Made by a program: the position numbers and the translations under genes. A DNA stretch of 25,474 bases, taken from a virus. Shown piece after piece: positions 3,240-25,137 of this stretch. The stretch spans positions 1-25,474 of the IMG/VR virus record IMGVR_UViG_3300022602_000384. The stretch is one strand, 5' to 3'. Position 1 is the first letter of the stretch. Each line of letters opens with the position of its first letter. The notes under the pieces were generated by a model. It had not been told where the DNA came from and did no database searches. It saw only the letters and a program-made list of their open reading frames with translations.

Positions 3240-5023
<1,784 letters not shown>

Positions 5024-5035
5024 TAGGATAGCGCT

Positions 5036-6112
5036 ATGGTCAAGATAGCAACCTATTCCATATGCAAAAATGAATCTAAGCACATACTGCGATGGGTTGA
5101 GGCAACGAAAGATGCCGACTATCGAGTAGTAGTAGACACTGGATCTACCGATGGTAGCCAAGACATGCTACGAGCATTAGGCGTTACTGTCTATCAGATC
5201 CATCTTGATCCATTCCGCTTTGATGTGGCTCGCAACACAGCCTTATCACTCGTACCAGAGGATGCCGATGTCTGCGTTATCTTGGATATGGACGAAGTTC
5301 CAGAACCGACGTTCTTTAAGAAAGTCCGCAAAAAGTGGCTACCAGGTACACATCTTGGCTGGATCAGCATGGATACTGGCCAGAAGTGGGAACGAGATAG
5401 GCTCCACTCAAGGTTTGGTTGGTACTGGAAATATCCATGCCACGAAGTGCAACTGTGGTACGGGCAAGGTAACACACGAGATTGTGACATCCGCAATGCC
5501 GTTATACAACACCTTCCAGACAACGACAAATCCAGAGGACAATATCTAACCTTATTGGAAATGGCTGTTAAGGAAAACCCGCAGGATCCTCGCATGTGGA
5601 CTTACATGACAAGAGAATATTACTTCCACCACCAATGGCAGAAAGTCATTGACTCAGCGGAGAAACAAATCCCGCTCAATGGTTGGGATGTAGAACAAGC
5701 CGCTGTCTGCCGATGGGCAGGTGAGGCTAGCCACCAACTGGGCTTGCATGAGCAAGCAACCGCTTGGTATGACAAAGGTGTACAACTTCTTCCCCGTGAA
5801 GGTGAATCATGGTACGGCGTAGCAATTGATGCTTATCGTCGTGAGGATTGGGCCAGGTGCTTAGATGCTTCTATCAACGCTTTGGAACGTCCTCGCTCCG
5901 TCCACTACTGCTACGAATCAGCAGTCTGGGACTGGAAGTCCTATGACCTTGCATCAATCTCTGCTTACAACCTCAAGCATATTGATGAAGCAATAGTCTT
6001 TGCAACAGAAGCCGTTAAAGGCAATGGCGAAGAAACAGAGCGTATTCAACGCAACCTCAACTTCTTTAGACAGGTGAAGAATGACACATCAGCACACAAC
6101 AAAGGTAATTGA
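5036..6112 (+). CDS. GT2-family glycosyltransferase with TPR-like C-terminus
   Basis: This 358-residue protein begins with a GT-A fold of family 2: an early ATYSICKNE strand, VVVDTGSTDGS (31-41), RFDVARN (61-67), then the metal- and nucleotide-binding DMD at 84-86 in VILDMDEVPEP. Such enzymes transfer a sugar from a nucleotide-sugar donor. From about residue 170 the sequence becomes helical pairs like tetratricopeptide repeats (WTYMTREYYFHHQWQKVI, QLGLHEQATAWYDKGV), likely for binding the protein acceptor. It starts 12 bases after the collagen-like gene, so the fibre is an obvious candidate substrate, but host surface or other virion proteins are possible. The acceptor cannot be read from sequence. 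The gene overlaps the next one by 32 bases. Confidence 0.82.
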   Translation: MVKIATYSICKNESKHILRWVEATKDADYRVVVDTGSTDGSQDMLRALGVTVYQIHLDPFRFDVARNTALSLVPEDADVCVILDMDEVPEPTFFKKVRKKWLPGTHLGWISMDTGQKWERDRLHSRFGWYWKYPCHEVQLWYGQGNTRDCDIRNAVIQHLPDNDKSRGQYLTLLEMAVKENPQDPRMWTYMTREYYFHHQWQKVIDSAEKQIPLNGWDVEQAAVCRWAGEASHQLGLHEQATAWYDKGVQLLPREGESWYGVAIDAYRREDWARCLDASINALERPRSVHYCYESAVWDWKSYDLASISAYNLKHIDEAIVFATEAVKGNGEETERIQRNLNFFRQVKNDTSAHNKGN

Positions 6113-8847: not shown

Positions 8848-9161
8848 TGGCTACCGCATATGTAATTCTCGGACAGGCTACGCCTTCGGCTGCTTCGTCA
8901 TCCACATTGGTAACAGGTTCTACCAATGGCTCCGTTGTAGGTTCGTTTACCGCCTGCAATACCAACGCCGCTAACGACACAATCCGTGTCAGCATTACCA
9001 AGTCTGGCGGATCTGCGTACTACATTAACTACAACTACACCATCCCTGGTTACTCGACTTTGAGCGAAACGCCAGGCTGGACCTTAGCCTCTGGCGACGT
9101 AGTTACTGTATACTCTACTAACGGGTACGTTTCATTTACAGCGACGGGAGTAACGCTTTAA
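8847..9161 (+). CDS. Small beta-rich virion protein (putative)
   Basis: This 104-residue protein is rich in Ser, Thr, Tyr and Asn, has a strong beta pattern (IRVSITKSGGSAYYINYNYTIPG) and no charged helices. It sits between two fibre-domain genes and is coupled to both by TAATG, so a role in the same fibre or capsid surface complex is likely. Its ASGDVVTVYSTNGYVSF end resembles phage tail-decoration proteins of the 'low-complexity beta' kind. No catalytic motif. Confidence 0.65.
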   Translation: MATAYVILGQATPSAASSSTLVTGSTNGSVVGSFTACNTNAANDTIRVSITKSGGSAYYINYNYTIPGYSTLSETPGWTLASGDVVTVYSTNGYVSFTATGVTL

Positions 9162-9511
9162 TGGCTTCTACATTATTGACTAATAGCGCCACGTTTCCAA
9201 CGGTAGCGTTTAACGCTCAAACAGGTACATCGTACACTTTCGTACTGTCAGATGCTTACAACGTAGTTGTATCGCTATCTAACTCATCTGCCATTACAGC
9301 AACTGTTCCACCTAACTCATCGGTGGCTTACCCAATCGGCGCTATCTTGCAGTTCTTTCAAGGTGGAGCAGGACAGGTAACTGTCGCTGCTGGTAGCGGC
9401 GTAACAATTAACTACACACCAGGACTTAAACTTCGTGCGCAAAATTCATTTGCCACCTTGATTCAAACAGCGGCTAACACATGGTTGCTCAGTGGGGATG
9501 TGACGCCATAA
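9161..9511 (+). CDS. Stand-alone copy of the fibre C-terminal beta domain
   Basis: The 116 residues align along nearly their full length with residues 157-247 of the protein at 8104: shared NAQTGT-YT, SNSSAITATVPP, GGAGQVTVAAGSGVTI, PGLKLRAQ and a final LLSGDVTP versus LLVGDLTA. The gene has therefore probably arisen by duplication of that domain. It likely forms a separate trimer on the virion surface. Coupled on both sides by TAATG overlaps. Confidence 0.7.
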   Translation: MASTLLTNSATFPTVAFNAQTGTSYTFVLSDAYNVVVSLSNSSAITATVPPNSSVAYPIGAILQFFQGGAGQVTVAAGSGVTINYTPGLKLRAQNSFATLIQTAANTWLLSGDVTP

Positions 9512-10062
9512 TGCCAATCTCATTAGCCTCTACATCAGCCAGTTCTATGCACGGCGCTATTGTGCCGATTGCTTACATTTCAAATCTTGCTGCAACTTCA
9601 ACATTTGCAAATATCCCATCTGGTTATCAAGATTTAATGGTCGTCATCAATGCTAGAGGTTCTCGTTCACTAACAAGCGATAATTGTTTAATTAGATTCA
9701 ATAATGATGGAAGCGGTATAAATAGTTGGACTTTTTTGCAAGGAGATGGTTCTTCAGCAACTTCTACTAGAAATTCATCAGGAAACAGTTTTATTGTTGT
9801 TGGAGACGTACCTGCTTCTAGCGCCACTTCTGGAATTTTTGGAAGCATAATCTGTCATATTCTAAATTATGCCAATACATCAACCTATAAAACAATATTA
9901 AGCCGTGCTGCTTGTGACTTAAATGGTTCTGGTTATAGTGAAGAAACAATTGGTTTATATAGATCAACTTCTGCTATTAACAGAATTGATGTTACGCAAT
10001 ATGTAGGGTACACGAGCGGTAGCACAGCAACCCTTTACGGCATTAGAACGGTAGGACAGTAA
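9511..10062 (+). CDS. Tail-tip paralog 1 (beta-rich surface protein)
   Basis: The start at 9511 is chosen because it overlaps the previous stop (TAATG); an ATG at 9481 would invade the gene before. This gives 183 residues. The protein belongs to a set of three in a row (9511, 10063, 10602) that share an early ANIPSGYQDLMV / TNIPQTFTHLQV / SSIPQTYTDLVL strand, a GDGSSA or ADGSTA loop, a Y-N-S-YKT strand and a final LYGI or LYGV. The jelly-roll-like pattern fits receptor-binding or surface proteins. Third-base composition is visibly more AT-rich than in the genes before it. Confidence 0.65.
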   Translation: MPISLASTSASSMHGAIVPIAYISNLAATSTFANIPSGYQDLMVVINARGSRSLTSDNCLIRFNNDGSGINSWTFLQGDGSSATSTRNSSGNSFIVVGDVPASSATSGIFGSIICHILNYANTSTYKTILSRAACDLNGSGYSEETIGLYRSTSAINRIDVTQYVGYTSGSTATLYGIRTVGQ

Positions 10063-10584
10063 ATGTCAATGTTTCCAATTGCAACAGTAAGTACGCAAAC
10101 ATCAAGCATTGCCTCATTTACCAACATCCCGCAAACATTTACGCATCTTCAAGTGCGTGCATTTGTTCACGATAGCGGAGCATCCAGCCCTGCCGATATT
10201 GCCCTTAGAGTCGGTAGCAGCACAACGACAACTGATTCTGGAAACAATTACGCTTACCACAGATTAGGCGGCGATGGCTCTAGCGCATTTGCATCTGCAG
10301 CAACAAGCAGTTCATTTATTAGTTGTGCATACTGCCCTGGCTCTGGAATTAGTTCAACTATTATGAGTGTTGCCATTGTAGATATTCTTGATTACACCAA
10401 TACCAATAAATACAAAACTGTTCGCAGCATGGGCGGTTATGATGCTAACGGCAGCGGTTACGCAAACTTTCATTCAGGCTTATGGCTTAACACCGCAGCG
10501 ATTCAATCATTGCTAATCTTTGGTGGTAGTGGTGGAACAAGCGCCTATAACACCTTCCAACTCTACGGCATAACAACCGCTTAA
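10063..10584 (+). CDS. Tail-tip paralog 2 (beta-rich surface protein)
   Basis: This 173-residue member of the three-gene paralog set begins directly after the previous stop. It has the FTNIPQTFTHLQVRAF strand, a GGDGSSAFAS loop and ends NTFQLYGITTA. Compared with paralog 1 the core is clearly divergent, so the copies are old or under strong selection. Another ATG at residue 3 (10069) is possible; the spacing to AGGAC favours either. Likely a virion surface or receptor-contact protein, by context. Confidence 0.65.
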   Translation: MSMFPIATVSTQTSSIASFTNIPQTFTHLQVRAFVHDSGASSPADIALRVGSSTTTTDSGNNYAYHRLGGDGSSAFASAATSSSFISCAYCPGSGISSTIMSVAIVDILDYTNTNKYKTVRSMGGYDANGSGYANFHSGLWLNTAAIQSLLIFGGSGGTSAYNTFQLYGITTA

Positions 10585-10601
10585 CGGCATAAGGAGATAA
10601 A

Positions 10602-11132
10602 ATGTCAGTATTCTTACAGCCGTTGCAAACGGTTACAGTTGGTTCGGGTGGGGCGGGAAGTGTTACTTTTTCTTCAATTCCACAAACTTATACAGATTTA
10701 GTATTAAAATCTAGCGCACGAAGTACACAGTCCGCTACATATACTTCTGTTGGTTTGCAATTCAATGGAAGCGCAACTGGATATAGCCAAACTTGGCTAC
10801 TTGCCGATGGTTCTACTGCATCATCTACCAGATATTCTTCAACAAGTATTACATATCCATATTGGGCTTCTGGGGCAAGCGCAACGGCAAATACTTTCAA
10901 CAATGGAGAATTGTATATTCCAAATTACACTGGAAATAATTACAAATCTTTATTATCTGATTCGGTTTCTGAAAATAATTCAAGTTCAGCGGGGGCTGTT
11001 CAGTTGATTCTCAACAGTTCTTTATGGTCAAGCACATCAGCAATTTCGTCAATAACAATTTATTGCGGAAGTGGTAACTTTGTTCAATATTCAGAATTCT
11101 CACTCTATGGCGTACTAAGAAGCGGTATTTAA
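10602..11132 (+). CDS. Tail-tip paralog 3 (beta-rich surface protein)
   Basis: This 176-residue third member of the set starts after AAGGAGATAAA, the best ribosome site of the three. It carries VTFSSIPQTYTDLVLKS, the LLADGSTAS loop and ends EFSLYGVLRSGI. Ser and Thr are very abundant. AT-rich codons set this region apart from the capsid genes. Its stop overlaps the start of an HNH endonuclease gene, a common sign of a mobile gene settled next to a variable tail-tip gene. Confidence 0.65.
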   Translation: MSVFLQPLQTVTVGSGGAGSVTFSSIPQTYTDLVLKSSARSTQSATYTSVGLQFNGSATGYSQTWLLADGSTASSTRYSSTSITYPYWASGASATANTFNNGELYIPNYTGNNYKSLLSDSVSENNSSSAGAVQLILNSSLWSSTSAISSITIYCGSGNFVQYSEFSLYGVLRSGI

Positions 11133-11563
11133 TGCCAAGCGGTAGAGTCGCAACTTATCCACATTGCACCATTGGCGAATGTGTTAAGCCACATTTAGCC
11201 AAAGGGATGTGTGGCATGCACTATCGCCGTAACTTTCTTTATGGCAATCCAAATACCAAACTTATATCAGGAGATAAAAAACGCGGCAAATATAAAATTG
11301 TTCAAGCCAATGGTCATCCTAATGCAAATGCTAAAGGTTCCATACCTGAACATCGTTTAATTATGAGCCAGCACTTAGGTCGTCCTTTAAGACCTGGAGA
11401 AAATGTCCATCATATCAACGGCAATCCAAAAGATAATCGCATAGAAAATCTTGAGTTATGGCTTGTTGCACAACCAGCAGGTCAAAGACCTGATGATTTG
11501 GTAAAATGGGCAACAGAAATTTTAACAAACTACGCACCGCATCTCTTAAACAAAGGAATATAA
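11132..11563 (+). CDS. HNH homing-type endonuclease with N-terminal zinc finger
   Basis: This 143-residue protein has an N-terminal cluster C12, C17, C27, H30 that could bind zinc. The HNH core is at about residues 86-110: RPGENVHHINGNPKDNRIEN, with the paired His at 93-94 and Asn-rich turn. This is the HNH_3 type found in phage homing endonucleases, which cut DNA and promote their own spread. It lacks an obvious DNA-binding AP2/NUMOD tail; the C-terminus is short and helical. It is inserted between the tail-tip set and the next small gene with TAATG coupling, so it does not break the operon. Base composition is AT-rich. Confidence 0.85.
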   Translation: MPSGRVATYPHCTIGECVKPHLAKGMCGMHYRRNFLYGNPNTKLISGDKKRGKYKIVQANGHPNANAKGSIPEHRLIMSQHLGRPLRPGENVHHINGNPKDNRIENLELWLVAQPAGQRPDDLVKWATEILTNYAPHLLNKGI

Positions 11564-11565
11564 CA

Positions 11566-11802
11566 ATGGCAACAGTAATCGAAGTAGATTGCACCACAGG
11601 CGTACAAACCGAGCGTGAGCAGACACCAGAAGAAGTAGCGGCACAGGCTGCTATGGCTGCTCAGGCTGAAGCAGATGCCAAGGCTAAGGCTGATGCACAG
11701 GCTGCACATGAAGCAGCACTTGCAGCAACCAACGCAAAGTTAATGGCCCTTGGTCTTACACAGACCGACATTGACACGCTATTGGCTGCCGCTAAAAACT
11801 AA
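11566..11802 (+). CDS. Small Ala-rich coiled-coil protein
   Basis: The chosen start (11566) follows AAAGGAATATAAC; an upstream in-frame ATG lies inside the HNH gene. The 78-residue product starts ATVIEVDCTTGVQTER-QTPEE, then has a long Ala/Glu/Lys/Gln helix, probably a coiled coil, and ends GLTQTDIDTLLAAAKN. The N-terminal pattern (D-TTG---ER--T-EE) is common in short proteins encoded after phage fibre genes, some of which are fibre-assembly helpers; here that is only a guess. It is the last gene before the structured region and terminator. Confidence 0.65.
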   Translation: MATVIEVDCTTGVQTEREQTPEEVAAQAAMAAQAEADAKAKADAQAAHEAALAATNAKLMALGLTQTDIDTLLAAAKN

Positions 11803-11939
11803 TATAGTGTAAGATAAGCATTCCTCTGGCTTGTTCTCTCCAGAGGATTACGAATCTGACTTGCCGTTACAGCGGCGAGCAGGAATTGCCCCGCCAGCAA
11901 TGGCGGGGTTTTTTATTGGAAACAACATAAGGAGTAAAT
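11803..11939 (+). ncRNA. Structured intergenic region, possible small RNA or attenuator leader
   Basis: A -10-like TATAGT (11803-11808) has TTGGCT 15 bases upstream. It is followed by three consecutive hairpins: CCTCTGG/CCAGAGG (11823-11829 with 11840-11846), CTTGCCG/CGGCGAG (11860-11866 with 11873-11879, one G-T pair) and a terminator at 11889-11914. A transcript from about 11815 would be about 100 bases. It could also be an untranslated leader of the tail gene at 11940. No tRNA fold is found. Confidence 0.35.
11889..11914 (+). terminator. Intrinsic terminator before the tail protein gene
   Basis: CCCCGCC (11889-11895), loop AGCAAT and GGCGGGG (11902-11908), followed by six T. This is a textbook intrinsic terminator. 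It ends the structural operon, yet the next gene is on the same strand without a clear own promoter, so readthrough or antitermination is likely. Confidence 0.85.
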
Positions 11940-14162
11940 GTGGCACTTGACGGCTTCCAACATATCGCTGAACGGCCCGTTGATCCGATTGGTCAACCAT
12001 CCAATGCTGGCAACACATATATCAATACTTCCAATAACTATGACTGCGCAATTGCTGGTCTGCCATTCTTCTTAGGCATTGATTCAGCCCATCCATACAA
12101 GCGTGAGACTGCCCAGTATCGCAAGCAACAGATTGATCAACAACGAGAACCAGGCGAGCAAACGCTCACAGGTTGGTGGCTTCGTAGCCAGTCCTCATTT
12201 CATTATGGCGCTGGCATCCGCTATGAAGAACCAATTGAAGGTGATGAAGTTGAATATCGCTTTACCAAATCTGCTGGCGTAGATGTATTTAACATTGGCC
12301 GAGTAACGCTACTCCCAGATGTCACCTTAAACCATACAGCCAGTTCTGCTCCGCTTATGATTGGCGGACATGACGCCAATGGCATAGATGTGGTTATCTG
12401 GTCTGACGGTTCCACGCTTTATCGCACTACTGCTGCTGGATCTACTGCAGCGCTTACTTGGGGCGGAAGCGGCACCATCCTTAGCATTACTCAAGATGGT
12501 CTTAATTACTACGCCGTCAACGCCACAGGCGTTTACAAAGGTCCACTTACTGGCGCAACTAACGGCACAATCATTTTTACCCACCCATCTGTAGTTGGCA
12601 CAGTTACCACAGCCAAAATCGCATGGGTTAAACAGCGTCTTATCCTCGGCATTAATAACTACATGTATGAAGTAGTACAAGTTATTTCTTATAACATTAC
12701 AGATGCCTTACTAACAACGCTTGTTGCCACTCTTAAAACCGATGGCACTGCTCACAACTTCTCCATCGGCTCAACAGTTGCCGTATCAGGAGTAGGCACT
12801 GCTTACAATGGAACATGGACTGTTACTGCAGTTCCAGATGCAACCCGTTTTTCTTACACTACCACATCTTCAGATGTAGCAGAAGGCACCGTTTCAGGTA
12901 CCGCTCAACTTTCAAGCAATACAAACCTACCTATCTACGCTCACCCAGATGCAAAATGGCAGTGGACTGGTATTTGCGAAGGACCAAACGCTATCTATGT
13001 ATCTGGTTTTGTTGGCGATTCTTCTACAGTATTTCGCCTTGCGCTTGATACTGCTGGCCAAGTGCCACTTCTTACTCGTGCGTTGACTGCTGCGGATATG
13101 CCAAAGGGCGAGATTATCTATGCTCTTGGAGCATACATTGGCAAGTACATGGTCTTTGGTACAAACAAAGGCGTGCGTATTGGCGAAATTGATACATCAG
13201 GTTTTGTGTCTTCTGGCTTCATTACCTATGGACCATTGAGCGTAATTACCAATGGCTATGATCCTGCTAGCGCTACCATCCTTAATGGTTATCCAGTAAA
13301 GTCAATTGCTTTCCAAGATCGTTTTGCTTATTGCACGGTTACTGATTACATTGATAATGGCGATGGTACCTTCTCATCTGGTCTAGTTAAAATTGATATT
13401 AGCCGTCAAATCTCAGCAAACCAAGCAGCATACGCTACTCATCTACGCGTACCTTCAATTGCTGAAGCCGCAGCGGTATGCACTGTTGGTGCTACTAATG
13501 CGCTTGCTATTGGTGTTACAGGCGTAGGCATGTATATGCAATCAACCAATCTTGTCTCCAGCGGTTACTTGCAGACTGGTCAGATCCGTTACCTTACTCT
13601 TGAGGATAAGCACTTCGAGTTGGTCAAATTACGTGAGACGCTACCAATCCAAGGCAAGATTAAATTGACAAGTATCCTTGCAGATGGTACCGCTACCGAT
13701 ATTATCACTGTAGATAATAACTTTGATTTTACCCAAGACATATCTGGCCTAGATCAAACTGCAGATATTACTCCGCAAGAATCACTTGCCTTGAAGTTCA
13801 CCTTCTACTCAGCATCTGGTCAACAGGTGGGTGATGAAGATTCATTTAATGGCTATCAACTCAAAGCCCTGCCAGCGGTTCAACGTGAGCGTATCTACAC
13901 AATGCCATTGCTCTGCTATGACTTTGAAGAAGACCGTTACAACATGGTTACTGGCTATGACGGCCGTGCTATGGAGCGTCTACTTGCCCTTGAGACTGTT
14001 GAGTCTGACGGCGATGTAATCGTCTTGCAAGACTTTACCAATAACGAAACTATCCGTGGCGTTATTGAAAGCATTTCGTTTAGCCGAGAAGCACCACCAG
14101 ATCGTCGCTTTAATGGCTTCGGCGGTGTTATCAGTCTCCAGTTCCGTACCATCGTCGCATAA
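11940..14162 (+). CDS. Large tail structural protein (740 aa)
   Basis: The start is GTG at 11940, six bases after AAGGAG. The overlapping ATG at 11938 is in another frame. The N-terminal 120 residues hold a conserved-looking stretch (PYKRETAQYRKQQIDQQREP, then GWWLRSQSSFH-GAGI) that I associate with minor tail proteins of actinophages. The middle (about 130-480) is repeated beta strands with VVIWSDGSTLYR, YYAVNATGVYKG and YMVFGTNKGVRIGEI, which suggests a propeller-like or nozzle-like fold. The C-terminal third has ALKFTFYS and a final strand FGGVISLQFRTIV. No lysozyme or protease motif is seen. It probably builds the tail nozzle, hub or spike. Family by memory only; the role is inferred from size and place before the lysis genes. 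Confidence 0.7.
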   Translation: MALDGFQHIAERPVDPIGQPSNAGNTYINTSNNYDCAIAGLPFFLGIDSAHPYKRETAQYRKQQIDQQREPGEQTLTGWWLRSQSSFHYGAGIRYEEPIEGDEVEYRFTKSAGVDVFNIGRVTLLPDVTLNHTASSAPLMIGGHDANGIDVVIWSDGSTLYRTTAAGSTAALTWGGSGTILSITQDGLNYYAVNATGVYKGPLTGATNGTIIFTHPSVVGTVTTAKIAWVKQRLILGINNYMYEVVQVISYNITDALLTTLVATLKTDGTAHNFSIGSTVAVSGVGTAYNGTWTVTAVPDATRFSYTTTSSDVAEGTVSGTAQLSSNTNLPIYAHPDAKWQWTGICEGPNAIYVSGFVGDSSTVFRLALDTAGQVPLLTRALTAADMPKGEIIYALGAYIGKYMVFGTNKGVRIGEIDTSGFVSSGFITYGPLSVITNGYDPASATILNGYPVKSIAFQDRFAYCTVTDYIDNGDGTFSSGLVKIDISRQISANQAAYATHLRVPSIAEAAAVCTVGATNALAIGVTGVGMYMQSTNLVSSGYLQTGQIRYLTLEDKHFELVKLRETLPIQGKIKLTSILADGTATDIITVDNNFDFTQDISGLDQTADITPQESLALKFTFYSASGQQVGDEDSFNGYQLKALPAVQRERIYTMPLLCYDFEEDRYNMVTGYDGRAMERLLALETVESDGDVIVLQDFTNNETIRGVIESISFSREAPPDRRFNGFGGVISLQFRTIVA

Positions 14163-21036: not shown

Positions 21037-21221
21037 TGCCACAGTTTATCTACGGCCCTAAAGATGGCGGCGAAGTGCCAGCAATCTTGTGGGTACTTGA
21101 CTCAATTGAATTGATTGAGCGTAGGGACGACGGCAGAAAGATGATACACTGTTATGAATTAAAAGATGACAAAAACTATTATTACGCAGGAGAATATGAT
21201 GCAGGGGGAGAAGATGAGTGA
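21036..21221 (+). CDS. 61-residue small protein, unknown
   Basis: The start at 21036 overlaps the previous stop (TAATG). The product starts MPQFIYGPKDGGEVP, has a beta-rich middle (ILWVLDSIELIERRDDGRKMIHCYEL) and an acidic end rich in Tyr, Asp and Glu. The GPKDGGEVP turn resembles short phage and bacterial proteins that I cannot name with confidence. No metal motif or membrane segment. Confidence 0.6.
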   Translation: MPQFIYGPKDGGEVPAILWVLDSIELIERRDDGRKMIHCYELKDDKNYYYAGEYDAGGEDE

Positions 21222-21603
21222 ACCAAGACTTACAATTGGCGATAAGACTGTTGACGAATGCAGGGATGCAGATTGTAAATATCAATCATTTAAACAACAC
21301 TATCACGGTGGCACTGCCTCAAGTCAGGACTTTGCGGCAGGCGTCTGGTCAGTAATGGACGAGATTGGCAACTTACTTATCACTAAGCAGGCTGATTATG
21401 GTCCAGGTAACATCAATAACGCGTTTGGTGGGCCAATGAATGGTCTGATGGTACGCATTGGTGACAAGTTTGAGCGTCTTAAAAACCTACTGAGCAGTGG
21501 CTCAAAGCCACAGCATGAGTCTATCGAAGATTCGTTCAAGGATATGGCTAATTATGCAGTCATCGCCTTGATGGTCGAGAGAGGGTTATGGCCTAAATCG
21601 TGA
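21214..21603 (+). CDS. DUF1599-like (nucleotide-modification-associated) protein
   Basis: The chosen start overlaps the previous stop by 8 bases; ATG 21199, six bases after AGGAG, is an equally good choice and adds five residues. The 129-residue product contains an all-helical module with TKQADYGPGNINNAFGGPMNG, MVRIGDKFERLKNLL and SIEDSFKDMANYAVIALM. This matches DUF1599, often found with thymidylate or nucleotide metabolism genes and related in fold to MazG-type NTP pyrophosphohydrolases. It probably acts on nucleotides. No thymidylate synthase or hypermodification gene is in the window. Confidence 0.65.
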   Translation: MSEPRLTIGDKTVDECRDADCKYQSFKQHYHGGTASSQDFAAGVWSVMDEIGNLLITKQADYGPGNINNAFGGPMNGLMVRIGDKFERLKNLLSSGSKPQHESIEDSFKDMANYAVIALMVERGLWPKS

Positions 21604-23954: not shown

Positions 23955-24092
23955 CTATGGCAAGTATTCTGGTATGTAGTTTGGCCATTCGATACCGCAA
24001 AGTGGGCAGTTCCACTTGGGTATTTCTTCCTCGTACCAACTACTTGAGCCGATACCGCAAGGTTTGCAGTACCAGTACGCTCTTGGCTTCAT
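23955..24092 (-). CDS. 45-residue zinc ribbon protein
   Basis: On the minus strand ATG (24092) overlaps the glycosyltransferase stop as ATGA. The product starts MKPRAYWYCKPCGIG and later has KWNCPLCGIEWPNY, two CxxCG knuckles 20 residues apart, a rubredoxin/zinc-ribbon layout. It ends at TAG 23955-23957, 44 bases from the terminator. No catalytic part. It may be a small partner of the glycosyltransferase or an independent zinc protein. Confidence 0.7.
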   Translation of the reverse strand: MKPRAYWYCKPCGIGSSSWYEEEIPKWNCPLCGIEWPNYIPEYLP

Positions 24093-24907
24093 CGTAATGT
24101 AGCCATCCACTTTTGGCAAGCGGCTACATCTTCATCAAGTGTTAAGTATCCATACAGTTTGGTGTTATCTAAATACTGCGGGATGTTTAGTTTGCGTAAG
24201 TTGCGGCTAAAGATAACATACTCGTAGTCATCTGTCCCATCGGTGTAAGTAACCTTTGATAGCACATCCTTGCGAATGAGATAGGTGCAGTGAACCACGT
24301 CACACTTGATCAGTCCGCGTACACGGCCATTGAGTATTTCGTAGTAGGCAGGATTGTCCTGGTAATAGCCATTAGGCGTGGCTATGTTGTGATAGTTGGC
24401 GTAAGGTGCATGGTCCTCTTTTCCTACCGCATAGCGGATGAGAGGGGCTACTACGGGCAAGTTATAGCCCACTAGTTGCTTTAAGGTAGAACCAATGACG
24501 AAATTATCCACATCACAGGTGTAGTAAAAGTCTGTTTCCCAGAAGATAGCCTCATCTATACCTTCTTGGCGTAGTCCCGCAAGCGCCTTAAAGCGCGTTG
24601 GATTCCACTCATGCACGCCAAAGTTCTGTACAGGTACATCAATGTCGCCATCTTCAATAATGATGTTAGCCCATTCATACATACGCTCATCTGATTCATA
24701 GCCATTAGCAGCGCGTACAGGCTGGTCATCTATCCATTGGTGCAAGATCTTGGCTGTGTCGTCGTTGTTGTTATTGGTTCTGAAGTATAGATAGACCTTA
24801 TCGCGTGGATAGTCCAGGTTATCTAGGTTCTGTTCAAGCCAGTAAGGCAGGATGTCTGCCTTGTCTTTGGCGAGGATGTGAATTAAGACTCTAGGTAAGT
24901 CGCTCAT
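24089..24907 (-). CDS. Collagen-galactosyltransferase-like (GLT25D/PLOD-type) glycosyltransferase
   Basis: The start at 24907 is chosen because it overlaps the previous stop (ATGA); a longer frame lies in the neighbour. The 272 residues begin RVLIHILAKDKADILPYWLE then LDYPRDKVYLYFRTNNNNDD, like the N-terminal GT-A domain of animal collagen beta-galactosyltransferases and lysyl hydroxylase glycosyltransferases. The metal motif is D132-V-D134-N, followed by TLKQLVGYNLPVVAPL, with the DxDN and LPVVAP order of that family. VVHCTYLIRKDV and YEYVIFSRN near the end match further family motifs. It probably adds sugar to a protein acceptor; the phage's own collagen-like fibre is a natural but untested candidate. 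No membrane segment or signal peptide. Confidence 0.72.
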   Translation of the reverse strand: MSDLPRVLIHILAKDKADILPYWLEQNLDNLDYPRDKVYLYFRTNNNNDDTAKILHQWIDDQPVRAANGYESDERMYEWANIIIEDGDIDVPVQNFGVHEWNPTRFKALAGLRQEGIDEAIFWETDFYYTCDVDNFVIGSTLKQLVGYNLPVVAPLIRYAVGKEDHAPYANYHNIATPNGYYQDNPAYYEILNGRVRGLIKCDVVHCTYLIRKDVLSKVTYTDGTDDYEYVIFSRNLRKLNIPQYLDNTKLYGYLTLDEDVAACQKWMATLR

Positions 24908-25137
24908 GATAATGCCTTGTCTATTGCTTCTACTGTTGGACAGCCACCTTGTTGGCATACGCGACACTTAGGAGATTCATCTTCTGGTTCGTGCAGTTGG
25001 ACAATAGCCTTCAAGGCTTGCCATGCGTTGCGCTGGTCTACTGTATTCTCGTAAAACTCAGGGTTAGTAAAGTGTACGAGGTTGGTCCAGTATTCTTCTT
25101 GTGCATTAATCTTTTTTAATAGTTCTTCGTGTGTCAT
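24904..25137 (-). CDS. 77-residue paralog A, MTHEEL family
   Basis: Starts after AAAGGAATTGAT on the minus strand. The product starts MTHEELLKKINAQEE, has a helical AWQALKAIVQLHEPE segment, a CRVCQQGGCP Cys cluster and ends TVEAIDKALS. The neighbouring 77-residue gene has the same plan, so the two arose by duplication. Small proteins with this frame (MTHDEL... ELHKP... CPTIQAIEKEL) are widespread in actinophages and have no known role; the Cys group could bind metal. ATGA overlaps on both sides place it in the glycosyltransferase operon. Confidence 0.7.
   Translation of the reverse strand: MTHEELLKKINAQEEYWTNLVHFTNPEFYENTVDQRNAWQALKAIVQLHEPEDESPKCRVCQQGGCPTVEAIDKALS

Follow-up and report, generated by a model that had tools for sequence, protein, structure and literature searches.

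The GTN locus and its phage lineage

The viral record IMGVR_UViG_3300022602_000384 of the IMG/VR database, analysed here over its whole length of 25,474 bp (the window), encodes on its minus strand, at positions 24089 to 24907, a single-domain GT-A protein of 272 amino acids with an ATG start. This protein, which we name GTN, is a homologue of the N-terminal domain (GalT-N) of the human collagen galactosyltransferase COLGALT1 and of the accessory domain of LH3. An earlier note on this DNA had drawn attention to the similarity and to a collagen-like fibre in the same window. The fibre gene is located on the plus strand (3581 to 5023; Pfam Collagen, 5e-35), and its description as threonine-rich and lysine-poor agrees with our count of 88 Gly-X-Y triplets, 68 of which carry Thr at the Y position, and of a single Lys among the 88. 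The assumption that lysine or hydroxylysine is not the usual acceptor, and that another residue would be needed, is in line with this composition. Directly downstream of the fibre follows a glycosyltransferase of 358 amino acids with a TPR tail (5036 to 6112, plus strand; phrog_13126), hereafter GT2-TPR.

GTN was confirmed to be a real open reading frame (ORF). It is encoded by 63 viral loci with 53-86% identity to the window protein, its ATG position is consistent with the starts in relatives, and a ratio of non-synonymous to synonymous substitutions of 0.08-0.12 between relatives indicates purifying selection. A small ORF without family match lies directly upstream on the same strand (24904 to 25137) and overlaps the GTN start by 4 bp (ATGA), so that both are probably translationally coupled. 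No match of GTN to GenBank phages was obtained at E 1e-3, and no family for it was found in PHROGs and NCBIfam. The phage comes from a lake, and its lineage probably has actinobacterial hosts, because its capsid protein resembles those of Streptomyces phages (53-58% identity to capsids of Streptomyces and uncultured phages among the matches listed) and because relatives encode WhiB.

Homology to the N-terminal domain of COLGALT1

A search with the single GTN sequence against all PDB sequences returned only three proteins: the N domain of COLGALT1 (E 1.6e-20, GTN residues 4-257), the accessory domain of LH3 (1.9e-6) and, at the edge of noise, mimivirus R699. With a profile of 26 viral GTN sequences the same proteins were found at 5e-30, 6e-15 and 2e-6, and nothing else below 0.3, while a second profile, built from 13 sequences of phages and bacteria, gave 2e-38, 6e-21 and 3e-9, respectively. 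Chance resemblance to COLGALT1 is excluded by the E values of the single sequence (1.6e-20) and of the viral family profile (5e-30). The AlphaFold model of GTN (pLDDT 85.8, pTM 0.88) superimposes on COLGALT1 residues 48-319 with Z 29.3 and a root mean square deviation of 2.4 Å over 252 residues, followed by LH3 residues 293-543 (Z 26), Mnn9 (Z 21.6) and R699 (Z 21), with all remaining GT-A enzymes at Z 17 or lower. Whole-domain profile and fold thus place GTN in the GalT-N/LH accessory superfamily, well above other GT-A families, and its homology to both animal domains is firm. The identity to GalT-N of COLGALT1/GLT25D1 (PDB 9evj, 9u7j, 8zgc) is 26% over the full domain.

The earlier note had recognised the COLGALT N-terminal domain from four motifs, and its reading holds by sequence and by fold. 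The motifs occur in the proposed order, namely DVDN (residues 132-135), LPVVAP (150-155), VHCTYLI (205-211) and YEYVIFSRN (228-236), and the structure search put the COLGALT1 N domain on top and did not assign GTN to an unrelated glycosyltransferase family. In PLOD3/LH3, whose glycosyltransferase domain the note had suggested for comparison, the match falls on the non-catalytic accessory domain and not on the glycosyltransferase domain. The designation as a collagen galactosyltransferase homologue is correct for the N domain only: the counterpart of GTN is the half of COLGALT1 that is dormant, while no match to the catalytic half, GT25 (PF01755, with its EDD site), was obtained in the 272 amino acids. 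The accessory domains of LH3 and R699 also belong to collagen-modifying enzymes, and LH3 retains the DxD, but they are non-catalytic and fused to other catalytic domains.

Pfam yielded only sub-threshold matches of GTN to Anp1 and GT2_4. Membership in Anp1 (PF03452, GT62), the best Pfam match, was rejected, as the score of 23.4 bits is below the gathering cut-off of 28.8 bits; bacterial GTN relatives pass this cut-off with 30-36 bits. Mnn9, a yeast mannan enzyme of this family, shares only 16% identity with GTN.

Putative active-site residues

GalT-N of COLGALT1 is described as catalytically dormant, with galactosylation being performed by GalT-C (GT25, EDD 435-437), and the accessory domain of LH3 as inactive (PMC13382579); the dormancy of GalT-N is taken from this review, whose residue numbers for the GalT-N DxD appear to be misplaced. 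Since GTN consists only of the N-type domain, galactosyltransferase activity cannot be read from homology.

The phage and bacterial proteins nevertheless carry residues which the dormant animal domain has lost. DVDN (24503 to 24514, minus strand) represents the DxD metal/nucleotide site and aligns with DADN of COLGALT1. Its loss in close relatives, which the earlier note had named as a counter-argument, was checked for, and the DxD proved invariant. HEWN (residues 99-102; 24602 to 24613, minus strand) is invariant in phage and bacterial relatives and reads KHWS in COLGALT1. HCTY (residues 206-209; 24281 to 24292, minus strand) is likewise invariant in relatives, and its His, present in COLGALT1 and lost in the LH3 accessory domain, is the probable third metal ligand. 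Glu229 (24221 to 24223, minus strand), located where a late helix of the model begins, is an acidic residue that does not vary and a candidate catalytic acid/base. The DxD together with N135, H206, R105 and E229 is invariant from phages through Mesorhizobium.

For comparison with GalT-N we used the 44 residues that vary neither in the viral nor in the mixed phage/bacterial alignment. COLGALT1 retains 23 of them, including D132, D134, N135, H206, W101, R105 and R113, and differs at 21, including K16 (Ala), R43 (Ala), H99 (Lys), E100 (His), N102 (Ser), H173 (Trp), D247 (Cys) and E229 (Thr, an uncertain partner as the position adjoins a gap). The retention of this polar set in phages and bacteria favours an active enzyme, and we infer from the sequences that GTN may well be one.

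GTN, GT2-TPR and collagen-like genes in phages

GT2-TPR is closely tied to collagen-like genes: of 43 phage loci with this gene, 40 have a collagen-like run preceding it on the same strand, usually no more than about 60 bp away. Among 22 viral records that bear GTN, 15 also yielded GT2-TPR. At eight loci (L234, L246, L249, L251, L253, L255, L257 and L258), whose contigs probably represent the same populations in some cases, GT2-TPR immediately precedes GTN in the same orientation; 17-38 bases separate the matched domains and the reading frames overlap in some. In four further loci (L219-L222) both genes are adjacent and convergent. A collagen-like gene is encoded about 3-4 kb upstream of the GT2-TPR/GTN pair in L246 and L255. 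The proposed link of GTN to collagen-like proteins is therefore supported with one amendment, as the gene adjoining the fibre is GT2-TPR and not GTN.

Several of these loci encode sugar-nucleotide genes. On the 130,553-bp phage contig L220, GTN, a GalE-like epimerase, a GT25 and a GT2-TPR that is fused to a methyltransferase are clustered within 7 kb, and several collagen-like reading frames lie about 13-20 kb from this cluster. L253 (3602-6178) and L255 (7265-9841, minus strand) encode a UDP-GlcNAc 3-dehydrogenase-like protein, a DegT aminotransferase and a NeuD-like acetyltransferase, convergent to the GT2-TPR/GTN pair; the families were checked in L253, and those of L255 are assigned from the likeness of its ORFs. 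The three genes would constitute an amino-sugar nucleotide pathway carried by the phage. The presence of sugar-nucleotide genes next to GT2-TPR and GTN in L220, L253 and L255 favours some UDP-sugar as donor.

The 48.6-kb relative G002 encodes two GT2-TPR genes (4421-5476 and 46350-47417) and two collagen-like regions. Among cultured actinophages, Actinomycetia phage DSL-LC01 likewise has collagen genes beside GT2-TPR.

Fusion proteins in bacteria

GTN occurs in about one of several hundred bacterial genomes and is too rare for context statistics; the neighbourhoods described here were found one by one, with no blind count. In three bacterial lineages GT2-TPR and GTN follow each other within a single chain, beside or near a collagen-like or Gly-rich gene. 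A betaproteobacterial metagenome-assembled genome (L088) encodes a 924-amino-acid protein of GT2-TPR, GTN and a third glycosyltransferase-like part, with 25% identity to the window proteins in the GT2-TPR part and 45% (7e-75) in the GTN part. The preceding gene, 213 bp away, encodes a (GATGAV)n collagen protein with a signal-peptide-like sequence.

Plasmids of Mesorhizobium ciceri encode a 933-amino-acid protein that is composed of GT2-TPR, GTN (44%, 4e-65) and a PF01755 GT25 domain (1.7e-16); the loci are L277 2682-5483, L278 3798-6596 and L293 4014-6809. These proteins, annotated as 'glycosyltransferase family 25 protein' (WP_063173840, WP_024505824), share the invariant residues with phage GTN, but carry GT2-TPR and GT25 in the same chain. 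The segment from GTN into the first part of GT25 forms one continuous alignment with COLGALT1 (1.3e-40), while the GT25 part by itself is weakly similar (3e-4). The Mesorhizobium fusion contains the complete domain succession of COLGALT. Each of the three plasmids examined has a Gly-X-Thr collagen gene, with (GATGST)n repeats, that is divergently oriented at a distance of about 1.5 kb, or has such repeats within about 2.4 kb.

In the third lineage, Burkholderiales (L286, 7322-9289), the GTN part behind GT2-TPR is degenerate and has lost DxD, HEWN and HCTY; the next ORF (9144-13088) encodes a Gly-rich protein. By analogy, this degenerate GTN would parallel the dormant domain of COLGALT1.

Proposed function and alternative explanations

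GTN, GT2-TPR and collagen-like proteins are linked through operons, gene fusions and gene neighbourhood. Phage adjacency, bacterial fusion and the collagen genes are most simply explained by a two-step pathway, and we consider it fairly likely that GTN is a metal-dependent GT-A enzyme working together with GT2-TPR on the Gly-X-Thr fibre. GT2-TPR (5036 to 6112), the probable first transferase of the pair, would place the first sugar on Thr at the Y positions of the triple-helix repeats, and GTN as second enzyme would add the next sugar onto the primed Thr. The fibre encoded at 3581 to 5023 is the probable acceptor. The donor of GTN is likely a UDP-sugar, with GDP-mannose as a possible alternative, and glycosylation might hydrate or stabilise the fibre or alter host binding. 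The GT2-TPR-first order in the fusions fits such a reaction order without proving it. Taken together, the data suggest that phages and bacteria own a collagen-glycosylation kit.

The best described bacterial counterpart is SgtA of C. difficile, a protein of 358 amino acids with a GT-A domain and C-terminal TPRs, whose gene is next to bclA3 and which adds beta-O-GlcNAc to Thr (or Ser) of collagen-repeat peptides in vitro (PMC7157674). Phage GT2-TPR may be likened to it by architecture and setting, with the same length, a GT-A domain plus TPR and a position beside a collagen gene, whereas the relation of SgtA to GTN is, as far as known, limited to the GT-A fold. An enzyme extending the sugar added by SgtA was sought and not found by its authors (PMC7157674), and GTN is a candidate for such a role on bacterial collagens elsewhere than in C. 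difficile.

Several observations weigh against the two-step pathway. In the lineage of the window, a distance of about 19 kb separates GTN from the fibre and GT2-TPR. GTN is encoded there on the other strand, within a WhiB/small-ORF module apart from the late genes, and no physical linkage of GTN and fibre was seen in the loci examined from this lineage; their connection derives from other phages and from bacteria. Its homologous domains in COLGALT1 and LH3 are dormant. Both transferases are also encoded by G1208, a distant phage record of 100 kb, which gives no Pfam collagen match. Of the 14 records of the window's lineage that bear GTN and reach at least 24 kb, 12 have a collagen match, which speaks for the pathway, but records related by major capsid protein that yielded no GTN, most of them shorter fragments, carry collagen too. 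The co-occurrence is therefore not discriminating, and collagen is so widespread in this lineage that co-occurrence alone proves little.

The strongest rival, although in our view rather unlikely, is that GTN is a non-catalytic nucleotide-binding scaffold which stabilises or positions GT2-TPR, similar to GalT-N in the COLGALT1/LH3 complex. A subunit would suit the operon pairing, the Burkholderiales fusion keeps a DxD-less GTN behind GT2-TPR, and a dormant state is on record for both animal domains (PMC13382579). However, the change of 21 of the 44 invariant residues in COLGALT1 (K16, R43, H99, E100, N102, H173, E229 and D247 among them) sets the animal scaffold apart from the phage protein, and the window's lineage encodes GTN as a separate gene, distant from GT2-TPR.

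We regard it as unlikely that GTN modifies a glycopolymer or glycoprotein of the host surface and thereby blocks superinfection or changes a receptor, as O-antigen converting transferases do. Such a role is often assigned to phage glycosyltransferases (PMC10202952) and would agree with the placement of the gene apart from the late genes, and the teichoic-acid transferases TarP, TarS and RmlT are among the weaker fold neighbours of GTN. With COLGALT1 at Z 29, however, their values of about 17 are far lower. The window showed neither a membrane anchor nor a flippase partner, and bacterial fusions and phage operons connect GTN to GT2-TPR and collagen-like proteins instead.

A role in glucosylating hypermodified bases of phage DNA has been put forward for glycosyltransferases of freshwater actinophages (PMC10202952), and window positions 21166 to 21603, not far from GTN, encode a MazG-like protein that matches Pfam DUF1599 ('Nucleotide modification associated domain 1'). 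For GTN we consider this function very improbable, as no DNA glucosyltransferase ranks in its sequence or fold searches. Neither a base hydroxymethylase nor a thymidylate-synthase-like protein or TET/2-oxoglutarate (2OG) oxygenase was among the 25 Pfam families listed for the 44 genes of the closest relative (48.6 kb), a listing which is non-exhaustive and drawn from contigs that may be incomplete. Action as a true collagen galactosyltransferase on hydroxylysine as in animals, for which the COLGALT1 homology might speak, is the least credible of all, because GTN has no catalytic GT25 domain, no lysyl hydroxylase was found in the same family listing of the closest relative, and the fibre offers almost no Lys.

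Origin and significance

COLGALT1 and phage GTN share DxDN, W101, R105, R113 and H206 as well as a connection to collagen modification. They differ in that GalT-N is dormant and paired with a catalytic GT25, while GTN is a single domain with the polar residues lost in COLGALT1 and accompanies a Thr-rich, Lys-poor collagen. One tentative scenario, which we hold to be possible rather than likely, is that prokaryotes and phages have an active GTN, that GTN and GT25 first acted together on their Gly-X-Thr collagens, and that animals inherited this set, with GTN becoming the dormant GalT-N scaffold as well as the accessory domain of lysyl hydroxylases, and the acceptor changing to hydroxylysine. 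The Mesorhizobium protein makes this origin of the animal enzyme testable.

Our literature search found no prokaryotic relatives of collagen galactosyltransferase, which is weak evidence given its incomplete coverage. Mimivirus R699 and R655 have been reported as viral collagen-type glycosyltransferases or candidates for these. As far as we have seen, a viral link to the GTN superfamily is thus known for giant viruses and apparently new for phages. Sequence, structure, gene fusions and the order of genes all connect collagen glycosylation in animals with a set of enzymes found in phages and bacteria. GT2-TPR followed by GTN offers a testable pair for the glycosylation of collagen-like tail fibres and surface proteins. 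The soluble single-domain GTN may also serve as a tool for glycosylating recombinant collagens.

Stand-alone genes in bacteria

Stand-alone GT2-TPR genes adjoin Gly-X-Thr collagen genes in Methylobacterium, two Cupriavidus and Peribacillus, which further supports a collagen acceptor. A collagen gene of Priestia megaterium has GT2-TPR beside it, together with a GTN-like protein of very distant similarity (1e-13 against a small database). Two stand-alone GTN genes (L086, L087) are placed in housekeeping surroundings with no collagen in the locus examined and give no support to a collagen link. Three weak bacterial GTN matches (G193, G318, G510) turned out to be generic GT2 proteins with no collagen nearby and were dropped. 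On a conjugative Citrobacter plasmid (L291, 918-5194), a stand-alone GT2-TPR directly follows an autotransporter gene, and a glycosyltransferase similar to it is also encoded on Enterobacter and E. coli plasmids.
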